From positions 1 through 64,000 of IMG/VR virus record IMGVR_UViG_3300024344_003321: a stretch of 64,000 nucleotides of DNA, one strand, 5' to 3'. A program made the translations under genes and the position numbers. Positions 31,753 through 49,161 of this stretch are shown piece after piece. This DNA is from a virus. Positions within the stretch are counted from its first letter, which is position 1. Every line of letters starts with the position of its first letter. A model generated the notes under the pieces. That model searched no databases. It was not told the origin of the DNA and was given only the letters and a program-made list of their open reading frames with translations.

Positions 31753-32985
31753 ATGAAGAACATTATAATAATATTAATGCTAATACTATCTGGGTGTGAA
31801 ACGGACACTTTACTAAATAATAATCCACAAGACCACACTATATTACAATTAAACAAATCAATTCCTAACCATGAAACTGATATAATAAGTGGTTACGAAG
31901 TTAACCCTCCAGGGTTATACCCATTTATGGCTTCAGTACAATATAATTCAGGTACTATGCACCAATGTGGTGGTATATTGATTGACCCAGAATGGGTATT
32001 GACTGCAGCACATTGCGTTGGTACGGGAAATCCATCAGCTTATTACATAAGAATTGGTGGGCATGAAATATTTGACAGTCCTGAACTGATAAGTGTAGAT
32101 GAAGTAATACAGCATCCCTTATGGGAAACTGATTTTTCAAATATGCTATGGCACGATATAGCATTACTACATTTAAGCACACCATCAGAATATACACCGA
32201 TTGAATTGATAGATGATATAGCTTTAGAATCAATTGGTGTGGCTAAAACTATGGGTTGGGGTGACACTATGTGGTTAGGTGAAAACTCAGATGTATTGTT
32301 AGAAATTGATTTACCACTTATTAATGATTGTTATATTCTTAATCCAGATTTAACGGATGATATTATTTGTGCTGGTGATGGGATATATGCAGGTAACCCT
32401 CAATCACCTGCACATGGAGATTCGGGTGGGCCATTAATTGTAGATGACAATGGTACATGGAAATTAGTTGGAGTCGTAAGTTGGGTTAGTTATTATAATC
32501 CATCTGGTTTTTCTCGAATATGGTCTCAAAAAGATTGGATTTATAGTATCATTGGGTACCCTCAAATTGAACCTTATTTTAGAATATATATAAAATCAGT
32601 TGTAGGGAATGTGATTAGAGTTGGACTTGAAAATACACATTCAGTTGGGTTTTTTAGGTTTCAATTGACTTCCAGTGACTCCTCATTTTGGATGACTAAT
32701 ACCTACGGTGCACCTGGGAGTGGGTGTTACCCCCAATTGCTAGAAATGGCAAGTTCATATCAATTTAGTGTTACAGGTAATTGCAGTGGCTTTCAACCCC
32801 CCGGTGGTGATTTTGTAGATGTTGAATATTGGAGGTCAGGTGAAGGTTCATTTGAAATCTGTGTAACTCCACATGATGAATGGCCTACTATTATTGAGTC
32901 GAGTGGACCACCAGTACCTGTTATTACAGATGATGAATGTAAGGTGTTTCATGTTGGAGAAATTGAGGATAATGAGTTTAAATAA
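31753..32985 (+). CDS. Secreted trypsin-like serine protease, predicted lipoprotein
   Basis: This 410-residue protein has a lipoprotein signal (hydrophobic residues 3-12, lipobox LSGC, Cys15) followed by a chymotrypsin-fold (S1) domain: activation-type IISG at residue 44, LTAAHC with His87, HDIALL with Asp135, and GDSGGP with Ser224. Cysteines for the 42-58 (Cys72/Cys88) and 168-182 (Cys193/Cys207) disulfides are present. The 191-220 pair is lost (Ala220). The S1-pocket position 189 is Ser218, as in chymotrypsin. Activation would require cutting after Asp43. About 130 C-terminal residues form an extra beta-rich domain. Its own promoter and the nrdJ scar upstream suggest acquisition. It may act at the host envelope. 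Confidence 0.9.
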   Translation: MKNIIIILMLILSGCETDTLLNNNPQDHTILQLNKSIPNHETDIISGYEVNPPGLYPFMASVQYNSGTMHQCGGILIDPEWVLTAAHCVGTGNPSAYYIRIGGHEIFDSPELISVDEVIQHPLWETDFSNMLWHDIALLHLSTPSEYTPIELIDDIALESIGVAKTMGWGDTMWLGENSDVLLEIDLPLINDCYILNPDLTDDIICAGDGIYAGNPQSPAHGDSGGPLIVDDNGTWKLVGVVSWVSYYNPSGFSRIWSQKDWIYSIIGYPQIEPYFRIYIKSVVGNVIRVGLENTHSVGFFRFQLTSSDSSFWMTNTYGAPGSGCYPQLLEMASSYQFSVTGNCSGFQPPGGDFVDVEYWRSGEGSFEICVTPHDEWPTIIESSGPPVPVITDDECKVFHVGEIEDNEFK

Positions 32986-36259: not shown

Positions 36260-36808
36260 ATGCAGTATATAACACGCTCCGGTACATTTGATTCTGGACA
36301 TCGAGTAATGAATGAGGCAATGAAATGTTTTAATCTACATGGTCACACTTATTTGTATGATTTGACTTTCTCATTCAATTCTATGAAGGATATAGGTTAT
36401 CAGATAGATTTCAAGGAAATTAAAAGAGTAGCATGTCAATGGATAGATGATAAATTAGACCACGGGTTCATAGCTAACTCAAAAGATGTAAATTATATCG
36501 AAGTGGCTCTAAAAGAAGGTAGTAAAGTGTGGGAGATGTCATTAGAAGGAATTGGTAAGTATTGCAATCCATCTGCTGAAAATGTAGTTAAAGAAATATT
36601 TTTAGCTATGGAAATTCTATTTGAAGGATATGATGATTTAAATATCTATGAAATTAAATTAAATGAAACACCCAAATGTTATACTATTTGTAATTCAGAA
36701 TCTATAAGCGATAGTGATAGAAGTAATTTTAAAAATGTTAGGTACAAGGAAATAAAACAATATGCAGATGATAAGGGGATTGTAGAATACGATGACAGAC
36801 TACAATAA
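36260..36808 (+). CDS. queD: 6-carboxytetrahydropterin synthase QueD-like
   Basis: This 182-residue protein of the T-fold family has zinc ligands His14 (SGHRV), His27 and His29 (HGH) with catalytic Cys23 (KCFNLHGH). DHGFIA (residues about 66-71) and KLNETPK (about 135) fit the active site. QueD turns dihydroneopterin triphosphate into 6-carboxytetrahydropterin, the second step from GTP to 7-deazaguanine bases. It overlaps queE by 17 bases. The length is above the usual 120-140, with a C-terminal tail. Confidence 0.9.
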   Translation: MQYITRSGTFDSGHRVMNEAMKCFNLHGHTYLYDLTFSFNSMKDIGYQIDFKEIKRVACQWIDDKLDHGFIANSKDVNYIEVALKEGSKVWEMSLEGIGKYCNPSAENVVKEIFLAMEILFEGYDDLNIYEIKLNETPKCYTICNSESISDSDRSNFKNVRYKEIKQYADDKGIVEYDDRLQ

Positions 36809-37544
36809 AAATCAACCATTAGGAGAAACATACGCTTGTTTACAGGGTGAGGGTAAATATATGGGTATTCCTCATATTTTGATACGAGTCACTGGATGTC
36901 GGCTAAGATGTCAATTTTCAGATTCGTTTTGTGATACACCGTACGCTTCGTGGACACCTGAAAAAGGTAAATATACTTTAAATGATGTTGTTGAATTTTA
37001 TGAAAATAATAAACATATAAGCCACACCATGATAACGGGGGGCGGGCCAACATTACACGCTGAATTGTTAAAAGAGTTATGCATTATAGGTAAGACATAT
37101 AACCATACAATTACAATAGAAACAGAAGGTTCGGAGTTTGTTCAAACTGTGGCTGATTGTATTTCACTATCACCGAAATTAAGTAATTCAACACCACAGC
37201 CGGGTTCTTGGATGGAATATGCCAATAGAGCAGTCACTAAAAAGGATAAACAGCAACATGAAAAGTGGAGATGTAATTATAAAGCTATGAAACAATTAAT
37301 TACAAAACATCCAGATTATCAGTTAAAACCTGTTATATCAAATGAAAAAGATTTAGATGAAGTAAAAGAGTTACAACATATATTAGATATACCGAACAAT
37401 AAAGTTTGGTTAATGCCTGAGGGTTTGGTAGAAGAACAATTAAATGAACGAAGGAGATGGTTGATGGAATTGTGTACACAAAATGGATACAATTATACAG
37501 ATAGATTACACATAATAGCTTATGGAGATACACGCGGGGTATGA
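36792..37544 (+). CDS. queE: 7-carboxy-7-deazaguanine synthase QueE-like
   Basis: This 250-residue radical SAM enzyme has [11 protein letters not shown] then [15 protein letters not shown] with Cys36, Cys40 and Cys47. The spacing C-x3-C-x6-C is expanded compared with C-x3-C-x2-C. The SAM-binding TGGGPTLH follows. QueE makes 7-carboxy-7-deazaguanine (CDG). It shares 17 bases with queD and 4 with folE. QueC, which converts CDG to preQ0, is not found in the window. Confidence 0.9.
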
Positions 37545-38182
37545 AAATATTACAAAAATTAGGGTATGCCAATGGTAATATACCATTGACAGGTGAAGAA
37601 AAACAAGAAATGATTAGAGAAGCAGCTGAACACTATGGTCGGTATATGAATGCTTTACGAATCGATTGGAGAAACGACCCAAATTCATCTGATACTCCTA
37701 TGAGAGTTGCGAAGGCCTTTGTTAATGATTTGGCTGAGGGTTGTTATAACGAAGAACCTAAGGTAACAGCATTCGATAATTTAGATAAATATGATGGTAT
37801 GGTATTTCAAGGTAACATTACAGTAAATTCATTTTGTTCACATCATCATTTACCGTTTGTAGGTGTAGCTCATGTAGCTTATATTCCAAGTATTGATGGT
37901 AAAATAATTGGGTTAAGTAAATTAAATAGAATTGTTGAACATTATGCAAGACGACCTCAAGTACAGGAAAATTTGACAATGCAAATTCATAACCACATCG
38001 ATTCTGTATGTGATGGTAATTTAGGTGTAGCAGTGATGGTATCAGCCAATCACATGTGTGCTTGCGTTCGTGGTGTTAGACATGATGCTACAATGAAAAC
38101 ATCTAAATTGAGTAAGGAGTTTTTAAACGGTGAGAGCAGGTCAAGCTCAGAATTTTATAGTTTTATTAACGGATTAAAATAG
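37541..38182 (+). CDS. folE: GTP cyclohydrolase I
   Basis: This 213-residue enzyme has the zinc-site motif [10 protein letters not shown] (Cys99, His102) and a later NHMCACVRG-type element (Cys at about 171), with DTPMRVAKA near residue 51. It opens GTP to dihydroneopterin triphosphate, the first step of both folate and 7-deazaguanine synthesis. Here it is the third gene of an overlapping queD-queE-folE set, pointing to deazaguanine. It ends 8 bases before the nuclease gene. Confidence 0.93.
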
Positions 38183-41681: not shown

Positions 41682-42067
41682 TGAGAATTTGGACAAACGG
41701 TTGTTTTGATGTGTTGCATAGAGGACATATAGAATTATTTAAATATGCTAGGTCGCTGGGAGATGAATTGATAGTAGGGGTGGATACAGATAGTAAGGTC
41801 AAAAAAGATAAAGGAGTAGATAGACCATTCAATACTTTGGCTGATAGGATGGCAGTTTTAAATTCCCTTATTTATGTGGATAAAGTGATTCCATTTGATA
41901 CCACAGATGAATTAAAAGATACAATAAAATGGCTGAAACCACATATTATGGTTATAGGTTCTGATTGGAAAGGTAAGGATGTGATTGGAAGACGGTATGC
42001 CGAAAAGGTAATATTTTTTGATAGAATTAGTGGATATTCAACAACTATGATTTTGGAGAATAAATGA
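41678..42067 (+). CDS. Cytidylyltransferase-fold enzyme, HldE adenylyltransferase type
   Basis: This 129-residue protein has TNGCFDVLHRGHIEL (HxGH-type motif with R-G-H), GVDTDSKVKKDKGVDRPFN, GSDW and a final GYSTTMIL. These match the adenylyltransferase half of HldE, which makes ADP-heptose. Start choices are GTG 41678 or ATG 41681. Together with the kinase and HAD gene this is a split HldE set. The isomerase GmhA would have to come from the host. Confidence 0.8.
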   Translation: MMRIWTNGCFDVLHRGHIELFKYARSLGDELIVGVDTDSKVKKDKGVDRPFNTLADRMAVLNSLIYVDKVIPFDTTDELKDTIKWLKPHIMVIGSDWKGKDVIGRRYAEKVIFFDRISGYSTTMILENK

Positions 42068-43071
42068 GTAAAATAATTTATTTACCAGTTGAACATCCGG
42101 GTGGGGCAGACGATGTTAGGAATAATAGCACATACGATACATATATAACAGATTATTTAACTCAGAATGATAAGGAATATATTAGGATATATCCAAATAT
42201 TCCACACCCAACAAGTTTAAAGGCTGGAAGTTTTCTTGATGCAGAGTTTACTATTAGATTTAAGAGTGCACAACTCGCAGAAATAGCAAGATTATATCGT
42301 GATGATGTGATTGTTTCTGGTGATATAATATGGAGTGCTGATTTGTGGCACCCAGGTATTGAAAGTATTGCTTACATGAATTATTTTGCTAAGAAGGATG
42401 TTAAAATTAGAGGTATGTTACATGCCGGTAGCTTCACTGATACGGATTTTGTACGGGATTTAGAGAGGTGGGCTAAAAACTTTGAGGATATAGTTTTTGA
42501 TATATCAGATAAAATTTATGTTGGTAGTGAATTTATTAAAAATGATGTTATTAAGAAGAGGATAGTTGACCCAAATAAAATGCAAGTTACTGGGTTCCCT
42601 CTCGATATAGATAAATTAAGTAAATTTCATAACAATAATAAGGAAGATATTGTTTTATTTAGTGCAAGGAATGTAGATGAAAAGCAGCCTTGGTTATTTG
42701 AAGAATTATCTAAAAGATTAAAAGGTAAAGCTAAATTCATAAATACATTAGAGCATAATTTTAGTAAAGAAGAATATTATGAATTGTTATCTAAGTCAAA
42801 GATTATAGTGAGTTATGCTTTACAAGAAAATTTTGGAGTATCAGTACAAGAAGCTGCATATTTAAATTGTGTGCCTGTTCTACCTAATAGGTTAGTTTAT
42901 CCAGAATTTTTTAGTAAAAAGCATTTATATAATACTTTTGAGGAAAGTGTTTCTATGGTAGAACATATTTTAAATAATTGGAATTTTACTGATGTGCATT
43001 GGCCAATAGAACAGATTGGCGTGAGTTGTAATTCAAATAAAAATATAATGGAGGAATGGTTTAATGCGTAA
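42064..43071 (+). CDS. Glycosyltransferase-like protein (GT-B, family 4 style)
   Basis: This 335-residue protein has LYRDDVIVSGDIIWSADLWHPG in the N-domain and DKIYVGSEFIKNDVIKK. The C-domain shows VLFSARNVDEKQPWLFEEL and ALQENFGVSVQEAAYLNCVPVLPN, the E-x7-E-like donor site. It probably transfers a nucleotide sugar. It overlaps the adenylyltransferase (4 bases) and the dpdA-like gene (8 bases), so it could use ADP-heptose or act with the DNA modification. Both are speculation. Confidence 0.7.
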   Translation: MSKIIYLPVEHPGGADDVRNNSTYDTYITDYLTQNDKEYIRIYPNIPHPTSLKAGSFLDAEFTIRFKSAQLAEIARLYRDDVIVSGDIIWSADLWHPGIESIAYMNYFAKKDVKIRGMLHAGSFTDTDFVRDLERWAKNFEDIVFDISDKIYVGSEFIKNDVIKKRIVDPNKMQVTGFPLDIDKLSKFHNNNKEDIVLFSARNVDEKQPWLFEELSKRLKGKAKFINTLEHNFSKEEYYELLSKSKIIVSYALQENFGVSVQEAAYLNCVPVLPNRLVYPEFFSKKHLYNTFEESVSMVEHILNNWNFTDVHWPIEQIGVSCNSNKNIMEEWFNA

Positions 43072-44263
43072 ATTTATTTATTTCCCATCATTTTCTGCAG
43101 GAGAATATGGTGATAAATTAAAAAAAGATTATAAGTTTAAAAATGGGCACTCGTGCCGATTTTATTCGGATGATTTTCCTGAACAATATAGACATAATCA
43201 AGTTTTAATAACAGCGGGAGCTCATTTTAAAACTGATGGTTATCGTAATTTGTTAGGACTATCTAAGGATAATTTAGTGATGGGTGACTCTGGTGGATAT
43301 CAAATAGCATCTGGTGCTATGAAGTGGGATATAAAACATAGAGATAGAATTTTTAAATGGTTAGAAGAAAATGCTGATGTTGCTATGAATTTAGATATTC
43401 CACCAAGATTGAAATATCAAGGTAAATATAGAGAATGTTTAGATATTAGCATTGATAATTTTAAATATTTTGATAAACATCAGGATGGTAGCACTAAATT
43501 TCTAAATGTAGTACAGGGTGATGATGATGTTACATACCAGAATTGGTATGACCAAGTAAAAGATTTTGAATTTTCTGGTTGGGGTGTAGGTGGTGCCGGT
43601 GGGAGTATGTATCGGTTCATGTCAGGTGTTTTAGCATTAATAAATGGTAAAGAACACCTAAAACCTAATAATGAATATTTTCATATTTTGGGAACATCGA
43701 AGATTAGAGATTTTTTAATGTTAATACAATTGCAGAAGTCACTTGAAGAGGTTGGGAGTAAAGTAACTGTTACTACGGATAGTTCGTCACCAGATAGAGC
43801 TGTAGTATTTGGGACATTCTATACTAATTTTAGTATTAAGCGGGGTACATTTGAGTCGGTTAATTTTCCCAATGCTAAGCATCAAGGGGATATAATTGAT
43901 GATTTTTTAACACTTGAAAATATGAATTGGCCAAACTTGACTAAATTTGATGATAATTTATCAAAATTTGTAGGTTGGAAAGACACAGCAGAATGGAATT
44001 CTGATTGTACAATTGGTATGAGATTACATAATTTTTTTGTATTCAAGGATGCAATACAGCAGATAACTGATTATGTATATGGTCACAATTATATTTTAGA
44101 ACAAGTTGTGGATAAAGAAGTATATACTGTTTTAATGTCAATTGATGAAATGGTCAAAAGTGATGACCCGAAGCGTGTATTTGAGAAATATAAACCATTG
44201 TATTCTAAATTTAGTAATATGAAAAAAACAATAATAAATAACAGTGCGGGGTTTTGGGAATGA
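43064..44263 (+). CDS. dpdA: DpdA-like guanine transglycosylase
   Basis: This 399-residue TIM-barrel protein of the tRNA-guanine transglycosylase superfamily has MGDSGGYQIASG with Asp75, MNLDIPP (about 112-118), FLNVVQGDDDV and WGVGGAGGS, then TDSSSPDRAVVFG, likely with the nucleophile Asp. Phage proteins of this type (DpdA) exchange guanine in DNA for 7-deazaguanine derivatives. With FolE, QueD and QueE upstream it forms a coherent modification system. DNA rather than tRNA as target is inferred from the phage context. Confidence 0.85.
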   Translation: MRKFIYFPSFSAGEYGDKLKKDYKFKNGHSCRFYSDDFPEQYRHNQVLITAGAHFKTDGYRNLLGLSKDNLVMGDSGGYQIASGAMKWDIKHRDRIFKWLEENADVAMNLDIPPRLKYQGKYRECLDISIDNFKYFDKHQDGSTKFLNVVQGDDDVTYQNWYDQVKDFEFSGWGVGGAGGSMYRFMSGVLALINGKEHLKPNNEYFHILGTSKIRDFLMLIQLQKSLEEVGSKVTVTTDSSSPDRAVVFGTFYTNFSIKRGTFESVNFPNAKHQGDIIDDFLTLENMNWPNLTKFDDNLSKFVGWKDTAEWNSDCTIGMRLHNFFVFKDAIQQITDYVYGHNYILEQVVDKEVYTVLMSIDEMVKSDDPKRVFEKYKPLYSKFSNMKKTIINNSAGFWE

Positions 44264-47425: not shown

Positions 47426-47622
47426 TGGATGAAGAAACAAGGTATCACACAGGTGATGTCGTTACAATAAATAATATAGATTGGATTATTGAATCTGTTA
47501 CAATGAGATTTGGTAAGATAATGAATTACGCGTTAAAATACAAAGATGAAAATGGTGATAGGGAATTTGTTAATATTGAAACGGGTTCACTTGAAACATT
47601 AATTAAATTAGGAGAGAGTTAA
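47425..47622 (+). CDS. Small hypothetical protein
   Basis: The 65-residue protein starts at ATG 47425, one base into the previous stop, behind GGGGGA. It has HTGDVVTINNIDWIIESV and MNYALKYKDENGDREFVNIETGSLE, a simple beta-strand pattern. No known motif is seen. It is coupled to the synthetase-like gene by one base. Confidence 0.5.
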   Translation: MDEETRYHTGDVVTINNIDWIIESVTMRFGKIMNYALKYKDENGDREFVNIETGSLETLIKLGES

Positions 47623-48455
47623 TGAAAGATATGTTCGCATATGATGCGGTAGTATATAAAATGAGGCAGTATTTTAGAGAAGCAAAAGGATTTGTCGAAG
47701 TACCGGCACAATCCCGACAGTCAATATTAGCAGCGTGTGAGGACCCAAAAACAATCAGCCAGTATGTTTTTAGTGGAACGAATTGGCCACTACCACAAAC
47801 AGGACAAATGTGGTTGGAACACGAGCTGTTGAAAAACCCAACGATAAAGGGTGTATTTTGTGTAACTACATCATACAGAAATGAGCCAAATCCAATACCA
47901 GGGAGACACGATAAAATATTTCCAATGTTTGAATTTGAATCACATGGTAATATGGATGATTTGATAACCATTGAAGAAGAATTATTATCATTTTTAGGGT
48001 TTGGTAGTGTGTTAGATTTCAGCACTGTAAAATATGAAGATGCTTCTACAAAATATGGTGTATCTGAATTAGATGTTGATGAAGAAGAAAAACTATGTAA
48101 GGATTTCAGTACTTGTACATTCTTAACAGACTTTCCTCAAAGAACACATCCATTTTGGAATATGAAACAAAATGAAGTGGATAAAAATCTATTTAATAAA
48201 GTAGATGTCATAATGCATGGAATGGAAACAATAGGAAGTGCTGAACGGAGTACAAATGTTGAAGAAATGCGACATCAATTTCATACAATTTCAGATGGTG
48301 AATATGCGGGATTGTTATTTAATCATTTTGGAAAAGAACGAGTTGAAGCTGAATTAGAGGAATATTTATCCCATGATATGTTTCCAAGATTTGGAGCAGG
48401 AATTGGCGTTACTCGTATGGTACGGGCAATGGAATTATCAGGATTATTAAATTAA
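47622..48455 (+). CDS. Orphan class II aminoacyl-tRNA synthetase-like enzyme (Asx type)
   Basis: This 277-residue protein is only a class II catalytic core. Motif 2 is TTSYRNEPNPIPGRHD with Arg86 and the loop Arg95-His96, motif 2 ends MFEFE, and motif 3 is GAGIGVTR (258-265). The core resembles AspRS, AsnRS, LysRS and asparagine synthetase A. The N-terminal OB anticodon-binding domain of AspRS/AsnRS is absent. Possible roles: charging a tRNA, making an aminoacyl adenylate for protein or base modification, or making asparagine. An unusual Asn-anticodon tRNA lies 600 bases downstream, suggesting tRNA charging. Confidence 0.75.
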   Translation: MKDMFAYDAVVYKMRQYFREAKGFVEVPAQSRQSILAACEDPKTISQYVFSGTNWPLPQTGQMWLEHELLKNPTIKGVFCVTTSYRNEPNPIPGRHDKIFPMFEFESHGNMDDLITIEEELLSFLGFGSVLDFSTVKYEDASTKYGVSELDVDEEEKLCKDFSTCTFLTDFPQRTHPFWNMKQNEVDKNLFNKVDVIMHGMETIGSAERSTNVEEMRHQFHTISDGEYAGLLFNHFGKERVEAELEEYLSHDMFPRFGAGIGVTRMVRAMELSGLLN

Positions 48456-48474: not shown

Positions 48475-48684
48475 ATGGCACATTATTACGAAGCAAATGT
48501 AGTATTTGAGGAAACGGTTGATACAAAAAATGGACCGAAAACTAAAAAGACAAAAGAAAACTATTTGGTAGAAGGTGATTCAGTTACTTATGTTGAAGCA
48601 AAAGTAAATGAACATCTACAAGATAGTGTTCACCCATTTGAAGTAAAATCAGTTAGAGAATCTAAAATAGTAGAAGTTGTTTGA
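48475..48684 (+). CDS. DUF4494-like small protein
   Basis: This 69-residue protein reads EANVVFEETVDTKNGPKTKKTKENYLVEGDSVTYVEAKVNEHL, then FEVKSVRESKIVEVV, which resembles DUF4494, a small beta-rich family found in Bacteroidetes and phages. AGGAGAATAAGGTT precedes the ATG. The stop overlaps the TTG start of the thioesterase. Function unknown. Confidence 0.55.
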   Translation: MAHYYEANVVFEETVDTKNGPKTKKTKENYLVEGDSVTYVEAKVNEHLQDSVHPFEVKSVRESKIVEVV

Positions 48685-49049
48685 AATTCCTAACACGAAA
48701 ACTCGTTACACCAGCAGACTTAAACCCTCGTGGAACTTTACATGGGGGTATTCTGCTGAAATGGATTGACGAAGAAGCAGGTGTACACGCAGCATTAGAA
48801 CTCAATACAGGTTTATTAGTCACTAAATATATGTCAGAGATAGAATTTGTATCTCCAGTGTTACCAGGCGATATAGTTGAAATTGGAATGGAAACTTTAA
48901 AGGTTGGGACAACATCAATTACATTAAAATGCGATGTTAGGTCTAAACAAATGGATGCTGTTATATTACGAATTGAAAAGATTATATTTGTCAGAGTGAA
49001 TAAATATGGTCAACCAAAAGCACACGGTGCGAGTTGGGATGAAGATTAA
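48681..49049 (+). CDS. Hotdog-fold acyl-CoA thioesterase
   Basis: The 122-residue protein starts at TTG 48681, overlapping the previous stop. It reads TPADLNPRGTLHGGILLKWIDEEAGVHAALEL, the active-site helix of YciA-type acyl-CoA thioesterases (catalytic Asp/Glu in the WIDEEAG segment), then VSPVLPGDIVEI and TSITLKCDV. It would hydrolyse acyl-CoA to fatty acid and CoA. It has no neighbour with an obvious lipid role. Such genes are rare in T4-like phages and may adjust host lipid or CoA pools. Confidence 0.85.
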   Translation: MKFLTRKLVTPADLNPRGTLHGGILLKWIDEEAGVHAALELNTGLLVTKYMSEIEFVSPVLPGDIVEIGMETLKVGTTSITLKCDVRSKQMDAVILRIEKIIFVRVNKYGQPKAHGASWDED

Positions 49050-49051
49050 AT

Positions 49052-49135
49052 TGGAGTATGGTGGAATTGGCAGACACGCTATCCTGTTTAGATGGTGATA
49101 TTTATATCGTGGGGGTTCGATTCCTTCTGCTCCAG
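49052..49135 (+). tRNA. Unusual tRNA: leucine-type class II body, GUU (Asn) anticodon
   Basis: The cloverleaf is complete. Acceptor stem TGGAGTA/TGCTCCA (49052-49058, 49128-49134) has one G-U. The D-arm is GTG...CAC (49061-49077). Anticodon stem CTATC/GATGG (49079-49083, 49091-49095) has loop CTGTTTA, giving anticodon GTT (49086-49088). The variable arm is 15 bases with a 4-bp stem GATA/TATC (class II). The T-arm is GGGGG/CCTTC with loop TTCGATT (49111-49127). The discriminator is G135 and CCA is not encoded. The D-arm and variable arm match leucine tRNA, whereas U1-A72, G73 and GUU match asparagine. Position 37 is T, which is abnormal. Confidence 0.8.
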
Positions 49136-49161
49136 CAAAAATAAAAAAAAGAGGTTATAGT

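Follow-up and report, generated by a model that had tools for sequence, protein, structure and literature searches.

What does a T4-like virus gain from a transfer RNA that joins the body of a leucine tRNA to the anticodon of an asparagine tRNA, and which enzyme could charge such a molecule? The question is raised by one gene in the analysed stretch of 64,000 nucleotides (the window), which is part of a 97,424-base T4-like virus record. ARAGORN calls this gene tRNA-Asn (GTT) at 49052-49136, and the RF00005 search of the source record places it at 49052-49135 with 36.7 bits, above the cut-off of 29 bits. The same search over the 97,424 bases of the record gave no second tRNA, and the fast-filter Rfam scan of the whole window did not list a tRNA. 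The features of the locus are collected in Table 1.

Table 1. Coordinates of the tRNA, its parts and the preceding genes within the window.
Feature	Position	Strand	Basis
Predicted minimal asparaginyl-tRNA synthetase (AsnRS), 277 aa, class IIb catalytic core	47622..48455	+	PF00152, phrog_29758, fold, active-site residues
69-aa ORF, DUF4494-like, between enzyme and tRNA	48475..48684	+	PF14902, E=1.9e-9
4HBT thioesterase-like ORF, ending 2 nt before the tRNA	48681..49049	+	PF03061, E=2.4e-14
Class II tRNA-Asn(GUU), positions 1-73	49052..49135	+	Direct reading, ARAGORN, RF00005, covariation
Leu-type D-arm, 3-bp stem	49061..49077	+	Direct reading; same arm in host tRNA-Leu
Anticodon GUU	49086..49088	+	Reading and ARAGORN; invariant in 111 distinct relatives
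Pyrimidine 37 (U; T37 in DNA)	49089..49089	+	Direct reading
15-nt variable arm, 4-bp stem	49096..49110	+	Reading; stem backed by covariation
Discriminator G73	49135..49135	+	Direct reading; G in 111/111 relatives

Direct reading of the sequence gives a complete cloverleaf. The acceptor stem is TGGAGTA/TGCTCCA with U1-A72 as the first pair, and the D-arm is GTG-GAATTGGCAGA-CAC. The anticodon stem CTATC/GATGG encloses the loop CTGTTTA, and it is followed by the variable arm T-GATA-TTTA-TATC-GT, with two unpaired bases on the 3′ side in the style of tRNA-Leu, and by the T-arm GGGGG-TTCGATT-CCTTC. The CCA end is not encoded. Long variable arms are textbook traits of tRNA-Leu, tRNA-Ser, bacterial tRNA-Tyr and tRNA-Sec. 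From tRNA-Asn the molecule has the GUU anticodon, the U1-A72 pair and G73, and it lacks the class I body with a short variable loop and A37. From tRNA-Leu it has the class II body with the Leu-type D-arm and variable arm, and it lacks a leucine anticodon and A73. The preliminary description, made from the sequence alone, had proposed exactly this combination of a leucine-type class II body with an asparagine-like anticodon and acceptor end, and both the direct reading and ARAGORN bear it out.

The tRNA belongs to a tight run of genes on one strand, which consists of the 277-aa ORF, the DUF4494-like ORF, the 4HBT thioesterase-like ORF, the tRNA and a PD-(D/E)XK nuclease gene, so arranged that the tRNA lies about 600 nt downstream of the 277-aa ORF. 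The two short ORFs in between are probably passengers: the DUF4494-like one is not conserved at other loci, and the thioesterase-like one would share an operon with the tRNA.

The 277-aa protein matches PF00152 (class II synthetase D/K/N) over residues 9-270 (E=5e-19) and no other Pfam family, and it matches phrog_29758 with E=3e-96. It begins at the catalytic core and stops just past motif 3, and therefore has neither an anticodon-binding domain nor the usual C-terminal tail; Pfam, the structural model and the alignment agree that the N-terminal OB-fold anticodon-binding domain is absent. With cellular AsnRS, both archaeal/eukaryotic and bacterial, it has in common the catalytic core, motifs 2 and 3 and the Asn-specific residues. 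In the alignment of 114 relatives the arginines of motifs 2 and 3 are near-invariant (R86, H96 and R265 in the class IIb core), and so are E66, R209 and the C39-E40 pair. The AlphaFold2 model has a pLDDT of 93.7, and its top 14 Foldseek matches in the PDB are all AsnRS, the first being the Pyrococcus horikoshii enzyme with asparaginyl-adenylate; AsnRS structures also rank first in the profile search with the enzyme family. Residues Q62 to E66, C39-E40 and R209 are as in AsnRS. The two substrate residues of the Asn type, the E after QLYx and the R in GGSxR, are E66 and R209, which align with cellular AsnRS and presumably touch the side chain of the substrate, as in AsnRS structures. The position of E66 is occupied by K or Q in an AspRS-like sequence and lies in a different motif in a LysRS-like one, these comparison enzymes coming from fetched genomes in which two AsnRS were confirmed by NCBIfam, and the AspRS-like and LysRS-like ones were assigned by motifs. 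Judged from the fold and the active-site comparison, the substrate is likely asparagine. In NCBIfam, asnS (TIGR00457) was not among the matches listed and the phage enzyme missed all AsnRS cut-offs; its best matches there were LysRS and AspRS(Asn), far under the cut-off.

Class IIb cores of about 280-330 aa without an anticodon domain are also found in the archaeal asparagine synthetase AS-AR, an AsnRS paralogue, and in GenX/EpmA, two structures of which (3g1z and 3a5z) are among the Foldseek matches. Unlike what is predicted for the phage enzyme, these proteins do not charge tRNA, and they have no tRNA partner gene. The enzyme could accordingly be an asparagine synthetase of the AS-AR type with the tRNA beside it by accident, an explanation that draws on the same domain architecture, the similar length and a weak profile match to the AS-AR structure 3p8t (E=0.001). 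It is nevertheless very unlikely, as AsnRS structures match far better in both the profile and the Foldseek comparison, the pairing with tRNA-Asn is near-obligate, and E66 is of the AsnRS type rather than the K or Q of AspRS, in an alignment that covers cellular AsnRS and the AspRS-like and LysRS-like sequences.

The pairing of enzyme and tRNA is common in aquatic, mostly T4-like phages. In the Prochlorococcus phages P-SSM2, P-SSM5 and P-SSM7 an enzyme 54-56% identical to that of the window, annotated as 'tRNA ligase', is directly followed by a class II tRNA-Asn, and at least 600 contigs in IMG/VR match the enzyme patterns. Among 284 fetched loci ARAGORN reported a tRNA-Asn in 143, and a finder blind to the anticodon and to base 73 detected a nearby tRNA in 184. 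The latter reduce to 115 distinct tRNAs: 111 of class II with GUU, two class I tRNA-Asn and two unrelated ones. The tRNA starts 8-40 nt past the enzyme in most of the 180 loci with a GUU tRNA, the gap being larger in L006 (1053 nt) and in the window (600 nt). The search was also run in reverse, scanning the 2.9 million viral contigs of IMG/VR with a pattern built on the tRNA only. It returned 95 stretches with 75 new loci, 73 of which contain the enzyme, nearly always tens of bases upstream, while in the other two the contig ends 374 and 63 bases from the tRNA on the side where the enzyme is expected. The tRNA is essentially never found without the enzyme, and chance adjacency of the two is ruled out.

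These relatives also decide whether the molecule is a pseudogene, or a tRNA-Leu altered by mutation or by sequencing error. Its body is of the leucine type and the best cellular matches of the covariance model are tRNA-Leu, but the same chimera recurs in more than 100 distinct sequences with intact stems and with G73, never A73, which leaves such an origin with a negligible probability and rules out a sequencing error or a mutated tRNA-Leu. The preliminary description had named an ordinary leucine anticodon in related phages as a finding that would speak against it; the related phages carry the chimera instead.

The conservation of the family is uneven. The GUU anticodon and G73 are found in each of the 111 distinct class II tRNAs beside the enzyme, the rest of the sequence being divergent, and the first pair is U1-A72 in 104 and A1-U72 in seven. 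Ordinary tRNA-Asn from the same loci also has U1 and G73. Base 37 is U in 97 relatives, C in three and A in 11, and base 33 is not U in nine. The control set, 101 further tRNAs of these loci, has only purines at 37 and U33 in all but one. The pyrimidine at 37 (100/111 against 0/101), which the preliminary description had pointed out as rare elsewhere, is thus more than chance. The variable arm ranges from 11 to 37 nt. Covariation among 25 relatives supports every helix: 20 of the 24 cloverleaf pairs, including all four pairs of the variable stem, change on both sides, and 99.5% of the cells are paired. In seven loci (L247, L248, L249, L256, L264, L274 and L282) the class II tRNA-Asn has a variable arm of about 28-31 nt with an inner motif CUGCAA or CGGCAAA-like, within which ARAGORN misreads an anticodon and so misnames the tRNA.

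The reading preferred here, and in our judgement a likely one, is that the phage carries a self-contained asparagine-charging pair, composed of a minimal AsnRS and a dedicated class II tRNA-Asn. The 277-aa protein would activate asparagine with ATP and join it to the class II tRNA. Because the enzyme has no anticodon-reading domain, it would select the tRNA by the acceptor end (U1-A72 or A1-U72, and G73), and perhaps by the elbow or the long variable arm as well. As an enzyme of this kind cannot read the anticodon, another constraint must preserve the strict GUU, the simplest being the decoding of AAC and AAU codons in phage mRNAs. Such decoding, one of the uses suggested in the preliminary description, fits the invariant GUU beside an enzyme predicted to have no anticodon-binding domain. 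The accompanying idea of a special-purpose tRNA served by a phage enzyme has strong support: a minimal AsnRS-like gene lies upstream here and beside nearly every relative, and the fold and active site of its product point to asparagine as the amino acid of the predicted charging. The notion of a 'recoded' tRNA finds no support, as there is no sign of a meaning of AAY other than asparagine.

The tRNA of the pair is probably orthogonal to the host. LeuRS needs A73, and neither it nor SerRS or the host AsnRS/AspRS should accept a leucine-type body with G73. The odd loop, with its pyrimidine 37 and sometimes without U33, could not take t6A37, and host enzymes whose substrate is tRNA-Asn may act on it poorly. 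The supply of Asn-tRNA in the phage would then be independent of the host tRNA-Asn. The host resistance proposed in the preliminary description is a plausible hypothesis, and the tRNA may perhaps escape a host nuclease as well.

Why a phage should need its own Asn-tRNA is a separate matter. No tRNA besides this one is present in P-SSM2 (252 kb), the record of the window (97 kb) or the contigs G061 (150 kb) and G063 (179 kb), which indicates that the pair is kept for itself, and since such single-tRNA genomes retain both tRNA and enzyme, general codon supply is not the reason. A high demand for asparagine was also considered and rejected: after GC correction, loci with the pair have a slightly reduced asparagine content, not an increased one. 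A possible reason, held with less than even confidence, is anti-defence, in which the pair stands in for host tRNA-Asn that an anticodon nuclease of the host has cut or that is degraded in infection. The altered loop (positions 37 and 33) and the class II body would make the tRNA nuclease-proof, and a private synthetase would be needed since the host AsnRS would reject the tRNA. Anti-defence would thus be a reason for the charging pair and not a different object. The single-tRNA genomes, the clustering of changes around an anticodon that itself stays GUU, and the absence of excess asparagine demand agree with it; against it, no tRNA-Asn-specific nuclease has been identified in a host, and the enzyme has no match in padloc.

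Pyrimidine 37 and a base other than U at 33 are unfavourable for ordinary decoding. An alternative is that the Asn-tRNA is consumed by a transferase or in some other reaction off the ribosome, or that the loop serves frameshifting (GUUU with AAAC/AAAU), either of which would relax positions 33 and 37. The frequencies of these two bases in the family are what such a use would lead one to expect. It is rendered improbable by the lack of a third gene accompanying the pair, the neighbours varying by lineage in the window and the P-SSM phage loci, and by a GUU that is otherwise invariant though the enzyme cannot read it. The frameshifting version also fails on the four-base anticodon GUUU, which is rejected as U37 is missing in 14 of 111 relatives. 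It is tentatively suggested, with some doubt, that the loop of the Asn-tRNA (pyrimidine 37, no t6A, U33 dispensable) is built for non-ordinary decoding and that the synthetase serves only this tRNA, the purpose being either decoding that withstands a defence aimed at tRNA-Asn or some non-standard use of asparagine, on or off the ribosome.

Several observations count against the charging pair, among them the unfavourable bases at 33 and 37 and an asparagine content that is not raised. First, the enzyme has no adjacent tRNA in 78 of 220 distinct sequences, or about one third, a count that includes the mislabelled L280, which does have a tRNA. These cases may be fragments, or they may use a normal tRNA-Asn, as appears from the enzyme-only phages W02 (481335-481407) and G023 (41853-41925), in which such a tRNA lies elsewhere in the genome. 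The enzyme tree shows seven or more switches of the tRNA label between branches with good support, and the tRNA has therefore been repeatedly gained or lost. Second, the nearest relative of the window enzyme (77%), from L007, is accompanied by a tRNA of the same kind (L007:7332-7475) with a GUC (Asp) anticodon, the loop UUGUCUC and a variable region of about 79 nt. This is the only non-GUU member seen. Should it be functional and charged with asparagine, Asp codons would be mistranslated; the gene may be in decay or mis-sequenced, or it may be a sign that decoding is beside the point, as the non-decoding alternative would have it. L022 and L026 depart in another direction, with an ordinary class I tRNA-Asn in place of the class II one, which ties the enzyme to asparagine.

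The enzyme also occurs in 27 genome contigs. Some of them, such as L107 and L109 with their class II tRNA, are probably viral contigs binned into genomes. In L095 (5001-5858) the minimal AsnRS gene lies among ordinary chromosomal genes of a 1.24-Mb chlamydial contig, whose genome also has a full AsnRS and gatA; the enzyme family is therefore not purely viral. A role in supplying AsnRS to cells that lack it was rejected, as the cellular genomes with the enzyme are mixed, a full AsnRS exceeding the cut-off in 11 of 24 and gatA in 15 of 24.

An example of a natural orthogonal pair is PylRS with tRNA-Pyl, in which, as in similar pairs, a synthetase without ordinary anticodon reading is encoded together with an unusual tRNA. 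The phage pair resembles it in the missing anticodon domain and in the co-encoded, structurally unusual tRNA, and differs in using a standard amino acid, sense codons and a class II tRNA. Huge phages are known to carry their own synthetases and tRNA variants (PMC7162821), and two phages of that work carry the enzyme described here (L004 and L005); they differ in having large tRNA sets and, at least in the phage of L005, an ordinary class I tRNA-Asn. The enzymes of P-SSM2, P-SSM5 and P-SSM7 belong to the same family, with the class II GUU tRNA directly after them. In the published analysis the cluster T4-GC 194 'tRNA ligase' is listed in one table for P-SSM2 and P-SSM7 only, without discussion, and in the records 'tRNA ligase' and 'tRNA-Asn' are annotated separately; the assignment to asparagine, the class II body and the pairing are not discussed (PMC3037559). 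A search of open-licence PMC papers, preprints not included, found no published account of a class II tRNA-Asn or of the enzyme-tRNA pair, which is thus undescribed within that literature.

The widespread class II tRNA-Asn adds an isotype to the tRNAs with long variable arms, and its pyrimidine 37 is an exception to an almost universal anticodon-loop rule. Together with its one dedicated tRNA, an AsnRS of 270-280 residues that lacks an anticodon domain is a candidate for a naturally orthogonal system that handles a standard amino acid, and it could become a tool in work on the genetic code. The pair can be tested directly in the isolated phages P-SSM2 and P-SSM7, and it may lead to whatever process in the host causes phages to carry a single tRNA and its enzyme.

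Several minor observations were made at these loci. In the P-SSM2 record (L001, AY939844.2) the annotated tRNA-Asn position 164094-164179 does not contain the tRNA, which the searches place at 162083-162168, directly after the enzyme. In P-SSM7 the reverse oddity adjoins the Asn pair: a tRNA-Leu(UAA) with a class I body and a variable loop of 5 nt (L002:4844-4916). Elsewhere in the window, the regions 36792-38182 and 43064-44263 hold a QueE-like radical SAM ORF, a GTP cyclohydrolase I (FolE) and an ORF with a GDSGGYQI stretch that recalls TGT/DpdA and has no Pfam match, a set that possibly serves 7-deazaguanine modification of DNA. The region 31753-32985 of this phage genome contains an ORF for a trypsin-like serine protease (PF00089).
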